Below, piece after piece: positions 2,677-63,999 of a DNA stretch of 64,000 bases (the stretch's first letter is position 1; each line of letters opens with the position of its first letter). Location: NCBI RefSeq assembly GCF_002113375.1, contig NZ_NEHO01000002.1, positions 248,001 to 312,000 of the forward strand. The letters are read 5' to 3'. The DNA comes from Pseudomonas sp. R37(2017). GTDB lineage: Bacteria; Pseudomonadota; Gammaproteobacteria; Pseudomonadales; Pseudomonadaceae. Made by a program: the position numbers and the translations under genes. The notes beneath the pieces are model-generated. The model worked only from the letters and a program-made list of their open reading frames with translations. It made no database searches and was not told the DNA's origin.

Positions 2677-3351
2677 ATGAGTATTCGCGATTGGCCGGCG
2701 GCGGAGCGGCCACGGGAGAGGTTGCTTGAACACGGCTCGGGAAGCCTGTCGGATGCCGAGTTGCTGGCGATTTTCCTGCGAACAGGGGTGGTGGGTAAAA
2801 GCGCCGTCGATCTGGCGAGACATCTGCTGAGCCAGTTCGGCAGTTTGCGATTGTTGCTTGAGGCTGATCAGGAAACGTTCAGCAAGCAGTTGGGGCTCGG
2901 GCCGGCGAAATTTGCGCAGTTGCAGGCTGCTCAAGAAATGAGCAGGCGTCATCTGGCTGAGCGGGCGCGCCAGAAGTCGGCACTGGAAAATCCACAGGCT
3001 GTTCGCGAGTACCTGAAGTCGATGCTGCGCCATGAGCCGCATGAGGTGTTTGGCTGTCTGTTTCTCGATTCCAGGCATCAGGTACTGGCATTCGAGACGC
3101 TTTTTCGCGGCTCCATCGACAACACCAGTGTTCATCCGCGAGAGGTGGTCAAGCGCGCGTTGGCCAATAACGCAGCGGCATTGATCCTCTGTCACAACCA
3201 CCCGTCGGGAAACACCGACCCCAGTCAGTCCGATCGAGTGCTGACCAAGCGCCTGCAAAAGGCGTTGGAGCTGATTGACGTGCGGGTGCTTGACCATTTC
3301 ATCATCGGCGACGGCGATCCGTTGTCGATGGCCGAGTATGGGTGGATGTAG
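2677..3351 (+). CDS. radC: RadC family JAB-domain protein
   Basis: Conserved bacterial protein with an N-terminal UPF0758 helix-hairpin-helix region and a C-terminal JAMM/MPN metalloprotease-like domain. The zinc motif is present as E123, H173-x-H175 in [14 protein letters not shown], and D186. The cellular role is unsettled: the old DNA-repair assignment was withdrawn for E. coli. The 224-residue length is standard and the C-terminus ends normally in GWM. The TAG stop codon is part of the downstream REPIN (TGTAGGAGCGAGC). A GGGAGG ribosome site precedes the ATG. Divergent from coaBC. Confidence 0.95.
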
Positions 3352-3446
3352 GAGCGAGCATGCTCGCGATGGTCGTTAACGATGACGCTGGGCACCTGAT
3401 ACCCAGCGGTGTTCTTCAGTCCATCGCGAGCATGCTCGCTCCTACA
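3347..3446. repeat. REPIN doublet
   Basis: Two inverted REP arms (GTAGGAGCGAGCATGCTCGCGATGG and its complement) flank a short core containing TACCCAGCG. The left arm supplies the TAG stop codon of radC, and the right arm ends 12 bp before the stop of the opposing peptide-binding protein gene. The core resembles that of the element at 26695-26796. Confidence 0.85.
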
Positions 3447-8169: not shown

Positions 8170-8333
8170 TGTGGGAGCGAGCCCTGTGGTGAGGGGGCTT
8201 GCCCCCGTTCGGCTGCGGAGCAGGCGCAAAACCATTGCATGCGGAGTAATTGATACGCCGCAATTGCAGGTTTTGGGGCCGCTCCGCGACCCAACGGGGG
8301 CAAGCCCCCTCGCCACAAAGGCTCGCTCCCACA
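8170..8333. repeat. Compound REP doublet, GGGGGCTTGCCCCC class
   Basis: Outer arms TGTGGGAGCGAGCC / GGCTCGCTCCCACA enclose inner arms TGGTGAGGGGGCTTGCCCCCGTT / AACGGGGGCAAGCCCCCTCGCCACA. The two REP classes are nested one inside the other around an 80-bp core. Fills nearly all of the kauB-MFS intergenic space. Confidence 0.8.
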
Positions 8334-19859: not shown

Positions 19860-19952
19860 CTGTAGGAGCGAGCACGCTCGCGATGGCGTCGTGTCAGTCA
19901 GCACCCATGTTGGATGTGCTGGCCTCATCGCGAGCATGCTCGCTCCTACAGG
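19860..19952. repeat. REPIN doublet
   Basis: CTGTAGGAGCGAGCACGCTCGCGATGG and an inverted CCTCATCGCGAGCATGCTCGCTCCTACAG arm. The left arm has C where most copies have T (GAGCACGCTC). Confidence 0.85.
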
Positions 19953-21990: not shown

Positions 21991-22083
21991 CTGTAGGAGC
22001 GAGCCTGTTCGCGATGAGGCCGTCACATTCAACATCATAGTTGTCTGTCAGGCCGCCATCGCGAGCAGGCTCGCTCCTACAGG
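21991..22083. repeat. REPIN doublet
   Basis: CTGTAGGAGCGAGCCTGTTCGCGATGAGG and an inverted CATCGCGAGCAGGCTCGCTCCTACAGG arm, between the convergent acetyl-CoA hydrolase-family gene and xpt. The left arm carries GTTCGC instead of GCTCGC. Confidence 0.85.
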
Positions 22084-26694: not shown

Positions 26695-26796
26695 CTGTAG
26701 GAGCGAGCATGCTCGCGATGGTCGTCAACGTTAACGCTGGTTGGCAGATACCCCGCGTCGCTCTCAGGTTCATCGCGAGCTTGCTCGCTCCTACAG
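26695..26796. repeat. REPIN doublet
   Basis: CTGTAGGAGCGAGCATGCTCGCGATGG and an inverted TCATCGCGAGCTTGCTCGCTCCTACAG arm between the convergent GGDEF-EAL and MATE genes. Its core (GTCGTCAACGTTAACGCTGG..GATACCCCGCG) is related to that at 3347-3446. Confidence 0.85.
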
Positions 26797-41988: not shown

Positions 41989-42210
41989 GTGACCGAGTCT
42001 GCTCCCGTCCGTCCGCCCAAGCCGCTCTACAGCAATGTCAGCCCGGCGGTGCCCTCGCCCTGCTGCAATGTGTGTCGGCTGGATGAGCACAAAGTCTGCC
42101 TGGGGTGTTTCCGCCATGTCGAAGACATCCGCGAGTGGCGTTCGGCGGATGACGAGCGGCGGCGGGTCATCTGTGCCCAAGCCGCTCAACGTCGAAACGT
42201 TCCCCTGTAG
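41989..42210 (+). CDS. DUF1289 domain protein
   Basis: 73 residues. The cysteine cluster SPCCNVCRLDEHKVCLGCFRHVEDIREW defines DUF1289, probably zinc-binding. Function unknown. GTG start at 41989, 4 bp after the cyaY stop; the longer upstream frame lies inside cyaY. The TAG stop is supplied by the left arm of the REPIN that begins at 42205, as happens with radC. Confidence 0.85.
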   Translation: MTESAPVRPPKPLYSNVSPAVPSPCCNVCRLDEHKVCLGCFRHVEDIREWRSADDERRRVICAQAAQRRNVPL

Positions 42211-42320
42211 GAGCGGGTGCCCGCTTGCGGCATGCTCGCGATGCACGACAAGACACCGCGGGGTGTCAGGCTGTCAGCGTTATCGTTGGCGGCCATCGCG
42301 AGCATGCTCGCTCCTACAGG
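42205..42320. repeat. Compound REPIN, hybrid left arm
   Basis: Left arm CTGTAGGAGCGGGTGCCCGCTTGCGG is followed by CATGCTCGCGATG; the right arm is plain CATCGCGAGCATGCTCGCTCCTACAG. The core GCACGACA-GACACCGCGG..CAGCGTTATCGTTGGCG is nearly the same as at 46254-46367, where the hybrid arm is on the right. Confidence 0.85.
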
Positions 42321-42393
42321 GGGGTGGGCACGGCTTGTTTATTTTTTGAGCTGTGATAGTGTCCGGGAATGCCTCAACCCATCGAGGCTGATG

Positions 42394-42430
42394 AAAACCC
42401 CGCCTTTTTCTGGCGGGGTTTTGCTTTTTT
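42394..42430 (+). terminator. Terminator-like hairpin ahead of rnk
   Basis: AAAACCCCGCC-TTTTTCT-GGCGGGGTTTT followed by GCTTTTTT, 30 bp before the rnk start. It could end cyaY-DUF1289 transcription or attenuate rnk. Confidence 0.6.
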
Positions 42431-42459
42431 CGTGCAGAAGAAAGGAGTCTGCCCAGATC

Positions 42460-42870
42460 ATGACCGCACCTTCCATAACCCTTACCCGTCTGGACGTCCA
42501 GCGTCTGGAGCGTCTGATCGACAGCCTGGACGACACGCTGCCAGGCGTTATTGCGCTGCAAACCGAGCTGGATCGCGCCGATACTGTGGTCGGCCACGAT
42601 GAAGTGCCGGCGGATGTCGTGACCATGAATTCCCGTGTGCATTGCCGTGAAGAAGGCAGTGGCAAGGACTACCACCTGACCCTGGTGTACCCCAAGGATG
42701 CGAACGCCGACGAAGGCAAGGTTTCGATCCTGGCGCCGGTGGGCAGCGCGCTGCTCGGCCTGAAGGTTGGCCAGCATATCGATTGGCCGGCTCCGGGCGG
42801 CAAGACCCTGAAGCTGACGCTGCTGGAAGTCGAATCGCAGCCGGCCAATGGCGGCGACTTCCCCGAGTGA
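42460..42870 (+). CDS. rnk: Regulator of nucleoside diphosphate kinase
   Basis: 136 residues. C-terminal GreA/GreB-like domain (about 50-130: VTMNSRVHCREEGSGKDYHLTLVYPKDANADEGKVSILAPVG) after a short N-terminal coiled coil lacking GreA's catalytic tip. Rnk binds RNA polymerase and influences nucleoside diphosphate kinase and alginate production in Pseudomonas. AAAGGAG precedes ATG 42460. A hairpin with T-run lies in its leader. Confidence 0.92.
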   Translation: MTAPSITLTRLDVQRLERLIDSLDDTLPGVIALQTELDRADTVVGHDEVPADVVTMNSRVHCREEGSGKDYHLTLVYPKDANADEGKVSILAPVGSALLGLKVGQHIDWPAPGGKTLKLTLLEVESQPANGGDFPE

Positions 42871-42877
42871 CATCCCC

Positions 42878-45721
42878 TCAGGCCTGATCGAGCGCCTCGT
42901 TCAGTGCGTGCTCCAGGTCAGCCTTGTAGCGCAGGTACAGATGGGTGGAACTCTGCCCTTCGCCGAGCAGGCCTGACAGGTCCAGGTCGGTGATGTAGCA
43001 GCGGTAGCGTTCGCTCTCCCGGCGCTGTCCGACGATTTCCCGGGCGACTACGCTGAACAGCTGGTCGCCATGTTCCAGCTCGGAAAACTCCCGTTGATTG
43101 CAATACAACGTCACCTGCGCCTGACCCGGTGCGGCTTTGCCGACGATCGCCTGCACGTCGTAGAACGGTTTGTTCACGGGTGTCAGCGGTACTGGTCGGG
43201 CTTCGATGCGGCGTGCCCGGCCAGGGCCTGGCGGCAGTAACTGACAAAACAGGGTGTCGAGGTTCAGGGGGGCGGCCGCGTCCATTGGCAAGAGGGCATC
43301 GCGACGGTACTGGATCGATTGCAGGAAGCGTTGCAGAGGCACCAGCAGGCTTTGCTCATCATGCCAGGGCAGGCGCTGATGCCACAGGGCATTGAACTCA
43401 TCGAGCACATACAGATCAGCCTGATCGTCGTTGACCCGATAGAACACTTGAATGCAGTCCGGCTGGCCCGTCGGCAGGAACAGCGCAAGGTCGTGGTCTT
43501 CCAGTGCCTTCGGATCCAGGTGCAGAGGGCTGTAGCTGGCCATTTCCTTGCCGAGGTAATCGATCAGCGCCGGCAGCGTGGCCAGCGCGATGTGCCGGAC
43601 CTGGCCCGGCACCAACTCCAGCACGTGGTAGTGCTGCTGGACCTGGATCAGGTAGCGATGATTGAGTCGGCTCAGCAACAGGTTCTGCGCGGTTTCGAGG
43701 ATGTCGTCGACCCGTTGGGCGATGAATTGCGCACGGTTATGGCAGAAACAACGCACCCGCAGCTTCGGCTGTTGCGGCCCGGCCGGCAGATTGTTGAGGT
43801 AGTCGCCGATGCAGTCGAGCAAAGCGTGTGGGCCGTCGTAGCGACTGACCAGCACCTCGTTCCAGCTGTTGAGCGTGACCTGGTCCAGGGTCAGCACCAG
43901 ATTTTCCCGGACACCGGCGTAGCTCAGGGAATCGGTGCGCTCGGTGGTCATCAGGATGTTCAGGTCGCGATGGTGCTTGAGTGGATCGACGCCGACATTC
44001 ACCAGAATCAGCACTTCGCTCGGCACGCTGGCGCGCAGCAGAGGTTCTTCGGCGACGGTGGGCAAGGGCAGGGCAATGGTCTGTTGCAGGCTGCCGAGCA
44101 GGTTGAACAGTTCGAATTCGCTCAAGTCGCTGGTGCCGGGGTGCAAGGCCAGGCGGGTGCTGCTGTCGATCACGCCATTGCGGTGGCACCAGGTCAGCAG
44201 TTCCAGCAAGTGGCGGCTGCGTTTGATCGGCGCGAAATGTTCCCACTCCAGCGCCGTCAGGTTGCCGTTGTACAGGCCCCACTGGCCTTGCTGTGGTTCT
44301 TTCCTGTTCGGTGCGTGCACCAGTGTCAGGGTGTCTTCCGCCAGGTCCAGGGCAATGCCGGGGTTGATGAATTCGACTTTGCCGGCCTTGCGCTCGAACG
44401 CGGCGTACAGCCGACGACCGAGCACACTCAGGTCGCGCTTGTTGATGCGGCTGACGGTTTGTTCGTGGCGGGCAAACTGGGTGAGAAAGCGGTAGCTGTA
44501 GTTCAACTCGTTGACCAGCGCCCGCCGCTCGGAACTGACCTGGCGGACTTTCCACTGGCTGCGGCTGTCGAGCAGGGTCAGTTGACGCTGGTCCCAGCGC
44601 CATTCGTGGGCCAGGCGCTCGAGCAATGCGCGTTGCCAACTCTGGGTGCGGCTGTTGCCGGTCAGTTTGCGATTGACCTTGAGGTACAGCGCGCGGCGGA
44701 CCAACTCCAGGCGTTCCGGTTCGTTGCGGACGATCAGGTATTCCTCGATGCGCCGGTACACCACGACGTACGGATCCAGCTCGTCGAGGTCGAGCCGGTT
44801 GGCGAACACCGCTTGCTTGAAACGCAGGCTCAGGCAATGAACCCTGGGGTGTTCACTGGCGTACACCTCGGTCAGCAGCAGCTTGAGCACCGACTTGTAG
44901 GGCGATTCGATGCCCTTGAACAACTGCCAGAGCCCGGCACCGATGAATTCGCCGGGCGGGATGTAGGCGAGGTTACCGAGGTCGAGGGTTTCATCGGCAC
45001 GGATGAAGCGTTTGGAGATCAGGGTATGGGTGTAGCGGTCGTAGCTCGATTCCTCGTAGACCGGCACCAGCCACCAGATCGGTGTCCGCCCGGCAAGCCA
45101 GATCGCGGTGCGGTAGAACTCGTCCAGCAACAGGTAGTGCTGGGTGGTGCCGCAATCTTCCGAGCTCAACCGGGTATCGCGTTCGCCACGGACGAAACGG
45201 CTTGGGTCGATCAGGAAGAAATGCGCCTCGGCACCCTGGCTGGCGGCCCAGATTTCCAGCAATTGGCATTTTTTGCGCAGTTCGGCGAGTTCGTTTTCGG
45301 TCAGGTCCGGCCCGTGGCAGACCCACACATCCATGTCGCTCTGGTCGGCCTGGGCCAGGGTGCCGAGGCTGCCCATCAGGAACAGTCCGTGAATCGGCCG
45401 TGGCGGGTTGCTGCCGTGGCGCGGTTTGTAGGAAAACGAACGGGTCAGGCGTTGGGCTTCAGCGAGGACATTGGTATCCGGCTCGAAGTTCGACAGCCCG
45501 GCCGGTGTACTGCCGGAAACATAGCCGGGCAACAACGGATGATTAACGTGGAAAAACAGCGGCAGCAAGGTCAGGACCCCTTGCTGACGGGGCGACAACC
45601 CCTCCATGGCGCGGGCCATGCGTCCTTCGTTGAGTTTCAGAAAGCGTGCGCGCAGTTGGCCGAGAACCTTGCGGTCGATTCCTTCGTCCAGATCTGGGCG
45701 GATTTCATGGGTGCGCGTCAT
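42878..45721 (-). CDS. cyaA: Class I adenylate cyclase
   Basis: Makes cAMP for Crp/Vfr-type regulation. 947 residues. The N-terminal catalytic half has the nucleotidyltransferase motif LMGSLGTLAQADQSDMDVWVCH (GS followed by paired aspartates). The C-terminal half is the regulatory domain of class I (enterobacterial) cyclases. Monocistronic and convergent with rnk. One potential target of its product is the Crp/Vfr-like site in front of algR in this window. Confidence 0.95.
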   Translation of the reverse strand: MTRTHEIRPDLDEGIDRKVLGQLRARFLKLNEGRMARAMEGLSPRQQGVLTLLPLFFHVNHPLLPGYVSGSTPAGLSNFEPDTNVLAEAQRLTRSFSYKPRHGSNPPRPIHGLFLMGSLGTLAQADQSDMDVWVCHGPDLTENELAELRKKCQLLEIWAASQGAEAHFFLIDPSRFVRGERDTRLSSEDCGTTQHYLLLDEFYRTAIWLAGRTPIWWLVPVYEESSYDRYTHTLISKRFIRADETLDLGNLAYIPPGEFIGAGLWQLFKGIESPYKSVLKLLLTEVYASEHPRVHCLSLRFKQAVFANRLDLDELDPYVVVYRRIEEYLIVRNEPERLELVRRALYLKVNRKLTGNSRTQSWQRALLERLAHEWRWDQRQLTLLDSRSQWKVRQVSSERRALVNELNYSYRFLTQFARHEQTVSRINKRDLSVLGRRLYAAFERKAGKVEFINPGIALDLAEDTLTLVHAPNRKEPQQGQWGLYNGNLTALEWEHFAPIKRSRHLLELLTWCHRNGVIDSSTRLALHPGTSDLSEFELFNLLGSLQQTIALPLPTVAEEPLLRASVPSEVLILVNVGVDPLKHHRDLNILMTTERTDSLSYAGVRENLVLTLDQVTLNSWNEVLVSRYDGPHALLDCIGDYLNNLPAGPQQPKLRVRCFCHNRAQFIAQRVDDILETAQNLLLSRLNHRYLIQVQQHYHVLELVPGQVRHIALATLPALIDYLGKEMASYSPLHLDPKALEDHDLALFLPTGQPDCIQVFYRVNDDQADLYVLDEFNALWHQRLPWHDEQSLLVPLQRFLQSIQYRRDALLPMDAAAPLNLDTLFCQLLPPGPGRARRIEARPVPLTPVNKPFYDVQAIVGKAAPGQAQVTLYCNQREFSELEHGDQLFSVVAREIVGQRRESERYRCYITDLDLSGLLGEGQSSTHLYLRYKADLEHALNEALDQA

Positions 45722-45912
45722 GTCAGCTCAAACCGGCTCGCAGGGCTCGGACGTGGAGGCTCTCGGGTGATGGCAGTTTAGCGCCTCGGACCGGAGACAT
45801 TTAAGCTGAATTTGGTTTTTTGGCGTCAGATTTACAACGTTGGAAAAGGTCAGCCAGCCGAACAGGCCCACGGATGTTCCGTTTCGGGTTTTCCGTGGGC
45901 GATACGATACGG

Positions 45913-46158
45913 TCAGGCCGTTTCCTGAGTCGTCAGGATGGTCAGAAGGGATTGAGCGTGTTCAGCGGCATCGCGCCCCAGGCTGGTCAGGTAACCGCCA
46001 TCGGGCTGGGTGATCAGTTCTTTTTCGTGCAGGCGTTTGGCGGCGGCAATGGCTTGGGGGGCAGCGGTATGGTGAATTTTCAGACCTTCCTGGGAGTTTT
46101 CCAGGCTGTAGAGTGCAAGGATTTCCAGTTCGGCAACCAGCTCAGGGGTAAACGACAT
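45913..46158 (-). CDS. TIGR02647 family small protein
   Basis: 81 residues: MSFTPELVAELEILALYSLENSQEGLKIHHTAAPQ begins a winged-helix-like pattern, with LHEKELITQPDGGYLTSLGRDAAEHAQ resembling the wing of a MarR/ArsR-type fold. This is the Pseudomonas-wide TIGR02647 family of unknown function, often annotated as DNA-binding. AAGGAG-like ribosome site (AGTCCTTATG region on the complement). Lies between cyaA and a REPIN. Confidence 0.8.
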   Translation of the reverse strand: MSFTPELVAELEILALYSLENSQEGLKIHHTAAPQAIAAAKRLHEKELITQPDGGYLTSLGRDAAEHAQSLLTILTTQETA

Positions 46159-46253
46159 AAGGACTCCATACTTTCTTGGAATGGGACGACAGCGCCCCTA
46201 AGGTGAACCTGCCGCTGCGGCATGTCCAGTGCCGGTGAAAGAAATCGAGTTCC

Positions 46254-46367
46254 CGTAGGAGCGAGCATGCTCGCGATGCACGACAGGACACCGCGGAAGT
46301 CAGGCTGCCAGCGTTATCGTTGGCGACCATCGCGAGCATGCCGCAAGCGGGCACCCGCTCCTACAGG
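46254..46367. repeat. Compound REPIN, hybrid right arm
   Basis: Plain left arm GTAGGAGCGAGCATGCTCGCGATG; right arm ATCGCGAGCATG continuing as CCGCAAGCGGGCACCCGCTCCTACAG. The core is nearly identical to that at 42205-42320, but the hybrid segment is on the opposite end. Confidence 0.85.
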
Positions 46368-63884: not shown

Positions 63885-63999
63885 CTGTAGGAGCGGGTGC
63901 CCGCTTGCGGCAAGCTCGCGATGGACGTCAACGATGACACAGGCAACCTGACACTCCACGGTGTCTGGTCTTCCATCGCGAGCATGCTCGCTCCTACAA
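63885..63999. repeat. Compound REPIN, hybrid left arm
   Basis: Left arm CTGTAGGAGCGGGTGCCCGCTTGCGG continuing as CAAGCTCGCGATGG, right arm CATCGCGAGCATGCTCGCTCCTACAA. Same hybrid left arm as at 42205 but with a different core. Confidence 0.85.

Follow-up and report, generated by a model that had tools for sequence, protein, structure and literature searches.

Arm replacement and core inversion in place among GTAG REPINs of Pseudomonas sp. R37(2017)

REPINs are REP doublets that form hairpins and act as replicating units, as set out in the sections of Bertels and Rainey (2011, PMC3116915) consulted here. In a window of 64,000 nucleotides from Pseudomonas sp. R37(2017) (C12:248001-312000; genome of 6.03 Mb, 52 contigs), the initial annotation had described two REPINs with near-identical cores and a hybrid arm on opposite ends, and a third hybrid-arm element at 63885-63999, and had ascribed them to recombination or template switching between arms. 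How did the same arm variant come to sit at either end of almost the same core? The three elements are REPINs, with two inverted GTAG REP arms flanking a core and one arm longer than the other. We call the longer, hybrid arm H and the ordinary GTAG REP arm N, and read all elements from GTAG to CTAC. The features of the window are:

42207..42317, no strand: REPIN 1, H arm left, N arm right, type I core
42207..42241, + strand: H arm of REPIN 1, position counted from the sequence
42218..42230, + strand: 13-nt insertion that makes this arm H, recognised by comparing arm forms and, at other sites of this genome, by alignment of orthologous loci
42242..42295, + strand: 54-nt core of REPIN 1
42296..42317, - strand: N arm (ordinary GTAG REP) of REPIN 1
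46255..46364, no strand: REPIN 2, N arm left, H arm right, core about 90 % like that of REPIN 1 and in the same direction
46255..46276, + strand: N arm of REPIN 2
46277..46329, + strand: 53-nt core of REPIN 2
46330..46364, - strand: H arm of REPIN 2
46341..46353, - strand: 13-nt insertion in the H arm of REPIN 2
63887..63997, no strand: REPIN 3, H arm left (loop AA), N arm right
63898..63910, + strand: 13-nt insertion in the H arm of REPIN 3
3348..3445, no strand: N/N REPIN of the same family, type I core
19862..19949, no strand: N/N REPIN, type II core
21993..22080, no strand: N/N REPIN, type II core
26697..26794, no strand: N/N REPIN, type I core

The opposite placement of H in REPIN 1 and REPIN 2 was confirmed, with near-identical to be understood as about 90 %: the two cores share one direction, and about 6 edits over ~61 positions separate them (counted by eye), against a median pairwise distance of 15 edits among type I cores. 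The third element was also found, with H on its left. Each of the elements that we folded gave one hairpin in single-stranded DNA, with z of -5.5 for both REPIN 1 and REPIN 2, -6.9 for an N/N element and -13.5 for an H/H element. The sampled DNA of this genome held 145, and later 199, inverted arm pairs at a set distance, with core lengths of mainly 54, 44 and 43, and genome-wide there are 344 exact N/N pairs. GTAG, or a degenerate form of it such as GTGG, stands at the outer end of the palindrome in the arm heads counted. A nested element at 8171-8332 of the window carries a GTGGGAGCGAGCC arm near GGGGGCTTGCCCCC repeats, which belong to another REP class. Since core inversion also occurs in this family (see below), the pair of REPIN 1 and REPIN 2 alone fits either arm transfer or inversion of the core.

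The H arm is an N arm with a 13-nt insertion beside the loop. Five arms of this genome read GGAGCGAG+TGCCCGCTTGCGG+C..GCTCGCGA, which is N with the pure 13-nt insertion, and the common form of H has one extra base difference, GAG to GGG. In single-stranded folds the REP hairpin is longer in the GAG form, and two small hairpins arise in the GGG form (-7.7 kcal/mol for GAG H, -6.8 for GGG H and -4.6 for N). Neither form of H folds better than shuffled sequences (z of -0.89 for GAG and 0.03 for GGG). Arms with tandem 13-nt units occur in two species, with four units in one arm at L072:5041 of this genome and a multi-unit arm at L097 of genome G318. Of the 199 pairs, 11 have a second type of insertion, X (CGGGCGGCGTTCCGA), which lies at the arm's inner base and sometimes shares an arm with H; its carriers in this genome include L169:659, L010, L017, L050 and L086. 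The orthologue of window position 46255 in genome G253 (L161) has an arm with a different loop-side insertion, GGAGCAGCCGGTCGACGCTCGATTGCTCGCG. Whole REPINs are repeated in tandem at L053:4805-5775 (C17) and L091:141-1481 (C3), with units of 127 and 185 bp.

The exact 22-mer of H is present in 99 copies in the 6.03 Mb genome (53 forward and 46 reverse), and the same pattern read backwards in none, so the abundance of H is not due to chance. Exact N arms number 782, and H makes up ~12 % of the arms in exact GTAG REPINs of this genome. Among 398 sampled genomes of the genus, the exact 22-mer was found in three, namely this genome (99), G318 (13) and G272 (2), and it was recovered from none of 35 same-genus relatives; these searches refer to the exact 22-mer and say nothing on inexact forms. 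Two Pseudomonas kielensis contigs also carry the 22-mer, at sites that read the same as the two G272 sites, and a match in Peteryoungia lay outside any REPIN context and was treated as chance. N/N REPINs are common in six of the eight genomes compared, this one included. We recognised no H insertion common to this genome and G318 or G272. Two H arms of G318 do lie in the same intergenic regions as H REPINs of this genome (L096/L021 and L102/L058), at another point and in other surroundings. The REPIN at L096 of G318 sits inside a terminator hairpin and its core looks unrelated to ours. At L096, and also at L105, the H-bearing REPINs of G318 are framed by a further inverted repeat (TTAACTGATCGGCAT...) and are perhaps part of a larger mobile unit.

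Two Y1_Tnp (RAYT) genes were identified in the genome. The first, at C12:419726-420046, scores above the Pfam cut-off for Y1_Tnp and has N/N REPINs of the GTAG H/N family on both sides. The second, at C34:97458-97739, is followed by GGGGGCTTGCCCCC repeats, another REP class; some 2 kb upstream of this gene, beyond other intervening sequence, there is an H/N REPIN. The idea of H as a separate family with its own RAYT is therefore unsupported, as the second gene adjoins another REP class. Locating the responsible transposase had been suggested as a check; the first RAYT is the one flanked by N/N REPINs of the family, and no clear RAYT belonging to H was seen. Mobilisation of REPINs by RAYT is established for the class, and by analogy the RAYT-associated REPINs described here would be mobilised in the same way.

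We compared how H and N are paired with the expectation for arms that unite at random. Using exact GTAG arms only and pooling tandem arrays, we counted 233 N/N elements genome-wide, and 64 H/N and 4 H/H elements in the fetched DNA of this genome. The H/N and H/H counts come from DNA around the exact 22-mer, minus elements broken by N runs, and include GAG-form H arms only within that DNA. At an H frequency of 0.12, random union predicts 233.3, 63.4 and 4.3, respectively, a fit which alone is compatible with other histories. The 64 strict H/N pairs are loop-variant heterodimers, with arms of one family and different loops. H arms carry the loops AT, AC, AA, CT and AG in proportions like those of N arms (chi2 p 0.42), and both arms of H/N elements share the same loop in 34 of 65 cases, with 29.3 expected under independence. 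Random joining of arms suggests an account of the loop-variant pairs in this genome. In the sampled loci the loop dinucleotides of N arms vary by genome, being mostly CT in G264, TT in G267 and G318, mixed in G188 and AT/AC/AA in this genome, which hints at concerted evolution of the arms.

The state of the arms was also compared with the similarity of the cores. Of 117 type I cores, 101 were kept after two tandem arrays were collapsed and 13 cores of uncertain orientation dropped. At distances of up to 4 edits, 9 of 28 pairs agreed in arm state, where shuffling gave a mean of 9.3; the corresponding figures were 22 of 71 (23.6) up to 6 edits and 68 of 197 (65.7) up to 8 edits, so that no association of arm state with core similarity was seen among these 101 cores. 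Several cases outside the window are like that of REPIN 1 and REPIN 2. The core of L057:4935 (N,H) matches that of L058:6885 (H,N) exactly (0 edits), and H stands at opposite ends of the two; an N/N element lies 3 edits from both. The cores of L071:4965 and L072:5041, again with H on opposite ends, differ by 1.5. The cores of H and N elements come as close as 2-3 edits. H therefore shows no detectable tie to a particular core, loop or partner arm. The proposal that hybrid arms occur equally on either end of the core stood in part: H is found at both ends, but equal use was not supported, with 39:19 on type I cores (p 0.012) and 31:19 (p 0.12) after arrays were collapsed and ambiguous cores dropped. 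The case named beforehand as contradicting the proposal, two old independent REPIN families with unrelated cores, has practically no standing. We found no point in its favour, and H elements share cores to within 2-3 edits with N elements and include opposite-end pairs with identical cores.

As the cores at the orthologous sites of the window mostly belonged to unrelated REPINs at the same places, we searched with the flanks of H sites instead. From 83 usable H sites the first 48 were queried, and their coding flanks were searched in G188, G264 and G267. Orthologous loci were obtained for 41 of the 48 sites, giving 91 comparisons of site and genome (94 rows before duplicates were removed). H was found in none of these 91 comparisons; 64 held a parsed REPIN, 13 lacked any REP and the remaining 14 had a REP-like head but no REPIN that could be parsed. 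Of the 64, 62 were usable (one of our own elements was unparsed) and 39 had cores of comparable length. The null was built from 1,812 non-orthologous core pairs, with a minimum of 5 differences and a 1 % quantile of 7. Seven of the 39 orthologous cores were closer than 99 % of the null, with 0.4 expected, five in the same orientation and two inverted. Five more reached p<0.05 (three same, two inverted). The remaining 27 divided into 14 same and 13 inverted, as unrelated cores do, so most sites are uninformative. Cores were related at p<0.05 in 12 of the 62 parsed comparisons, though 64 of 91 hold a REPIN; judged from these H sites, it is as if REPINs replaced REPINs at kept sites.

At five loci, an N arm had turned into H around a core that was retained without a change of orientation:

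L063:5056 versus G264: 1 difference in 62, same orientation, N to H
L054:4546 versus G264: 2 differences in 62, same orientation, N to H
L169:659 versus G267: 3 differences in 62, same orientation, N to H; the other arm also changed, to X
L172:16260 versus G264: 6 differences, same orientation, p 0.0011
L044:5017 versus G267: 6 differences, same orientation, p 0.0011

With a null minimum of 5 differences, L172:16260 and L044:5017 rest on their p value. The alignments of the five loci display the kept core and a 13-nt gap in one arm. In the clearest ones the flanks can be aligned right up to the arm, and at L172:16260 the outer flanks are less well kept. A weaker case is L038:4793 versus G267 (p 0.025), where the left arm still belongs to the GGGC REP subfamily and the right arm has become H. 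The sites were picked for carrying H in this genome, and since none of the 91 comparisons shows H, parsimony gives the direction from N to H. Arms were thus replaced in place. The donor was presumably another arm, which for any single H arm goes unseen in a comparison with one genome of the species.

The cores themselves flip in place between their two inverted arms. The core of L044:5017 lies the other way round in G188: read inverted, the two show 2 differences in 62, against 23 in the same orientation, and at this site the orientation in G267 is the same as in our genome. L039:4936 versus G188 is inverted with 6 differences. REPIN 2 of the window (46255) corresponds to an N/N REPIN at the same site in G188, with a related core that is inverted (7 differences, p 0.011, a weaker case). 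In a survey around the window, we used 397 of 605 orthologous site pairs, those of the same core class only; they share elements and are not independent. Beyond the 99 % level of the null, 51 pairs had the same orientation and 10 were inverted. The best inverted pairs set the G021 element at site 41538 against G158 and G235 and reach a score of 0.77, where the highest of 1,307 null pairs has 0.692. Six of the ten involve one G021 element and so probably represent one event. A spacer inverted in place between kept flanks, an outcome expected of template switching, was found at L044:5017 versus G188 and at site 41538 of G021.

We consider it likely that these are ordinary RAYT-associated REPINs with recombining arms, in which H spread by copying and by non-reciprocal transfer and the cores flip separately. 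Recombination or template switching between arms, as the initial annotation proposed, is supported by random union, by the lack of association between arm state and core and by the five loci where N became H in place. H would have spread by two routes, the copying of whole REPINs, as is known for the class, and the non-reciprocal transfer of H into arms of REPINs already present elsewhere. One arm may serve as the template for another, in the same or another element, and so replace it, and a template switch crossing the core would leave the core inverted. The process is presumably template switching or gene conversion, and could be initiated by forks stalled at REP hairpins or by RAYT nicks. 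Gene conversion begun by RAYT cleavage would give the same sequence outcome as template switching. Templates are plentiful, with two arms in cis for each REPIN and about 900 exact arms in trans. The arms, ~22-35 nt, are short for RecA recombination. From random union and the lack of linkage, transfer would seem to outpace the divergence of cores. In a stronger version, repair of REP hairpins nicked by RAYT would bring in a copy of another arm, making a homing-like conversion drive the main route by which arms spread into existing arms; this seems to us possible but rather doubtful. If it were true, REPINs would evolve as a population that recombines inside a single clonal genome, their arms would undergo concerted evolution, and the cores would serve as markers of the sites.

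Could the flipping of cores explain the pattern by itself? A single H/N lineage would then have spread by transposition, and flips would have moved H to the other end of the core. In-place inversion is indeed seen, and identical cores with H on opposite ends fit this reading. Inversion cannot, however, turn N/N into H/N with the orientation of the core kept, as happened at the five loci. It also leaves unexplained the H/H elements and, in 12 of the 28 closest pairs, H/N and N/N cores that differ by only 2-4 edits, and we regard it as improbable. Much the same improbability attaches to a recurrent origin, where the same 13-nt insertion arises repeatedly in N arms, for example by slippage or quasi-palindrome repair, with no donor. 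The unit can multiply (four tandem units at L072, a multi-unit arm at L097 of G318) and H occurs on all common loop backgrounds. As read from the sequence, though, an N arm offers no copy of the 13 nt as a template, and the exact 22-mer, found 99 times here, is missing from 395 of 398 sampled genomes of the genus although several relatives commonly carry N/N REPINs. Allelic exchange with other strains, in which homologous recombination over the flanks brought H arms to orthologous sites, gains some room from the use of one genome per species. It nevertheless shifts the question to the donor strain, where H must still have entered an arm with the core unchanged, and we hold it to be very unlikely.

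REPINs are usually treated as replicators that are copied whole. If arms are exchanged and cores flip, arm sequences are not a clonal record of transposition, and estimates of copy number and age drawn from them may be biased. The REPIN family appears to behave less as a collection of intact copies than as a population that recombines. Whether REPs evolve by gene conversion was asked in the title of a review by Higgins et al. in 1988; the examples in place described here, with the 13 nt as a marker, bear on that question and, if our reading is true, make it directly testable with a natural marker.

The elements resemble the REPINs of PMC3116915 in their inverted REP arms, core, predicted hairpin and a RAYT flanked by REPs of the same class. 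They differ in that arm exchange and core flipping are absent from the consulted sections of that account, where gene conversion appears only in the title of a reference. Among the matches listed in the open-licence literature we found none that describes REPIN arms being transferred, or REPIN cores inverted, in place, and the excerpts of PMC8049555 and PMC12306157 report neither. For GTAG REPs, the excerpts of PMC3733652 describe loop variants of different length within a single family and dimers of differing loops, a preference for heterodimers which, in its authors' words, has 'no obvious explanation'. Our family shares with them the GTAG terminus and the loop-variant dimers. According to the same excerpts, the enterobacterial GTAG-3 REPs form exclusively loop-length heterodimers, whereas here H/N and H/H elements occur at random-union frequencies. 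As regards the loop itself, its role is given in the abridged text of PMC8266576 as non-specific for E. coli TnpAREP, while it mattered for two others.

The REP orthoswitch in the consulted part of PMC3686654 concerns a new REP variant that multiplies beside the old one with only one RAYT present. It is explained there by mutation of the REPs flanking RAYT followed by multiplication, whereas here the variant enters existing elements. The closest parallel in mechanism comes from PMC8604942, where, in the portions considered, template switching between short inverted repeats leads to homogenisation of arms and inversion of spacers. It predicts an arm copied onto an arm and inverted spacers; spacers inverted in place were found in our data, and the change of N to H in place at five loci would fit the copying of an arm from a presumed donor. 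That work deals with yeast genes and inversions of a few bp, whereas ours involves cores of 43-54 nt, bacterial repeats and transfer between elements. REPINs and loop-variant REP pairs are already known, and what is of interest here is the exchange of arms within a genome together with the flipping of cores.
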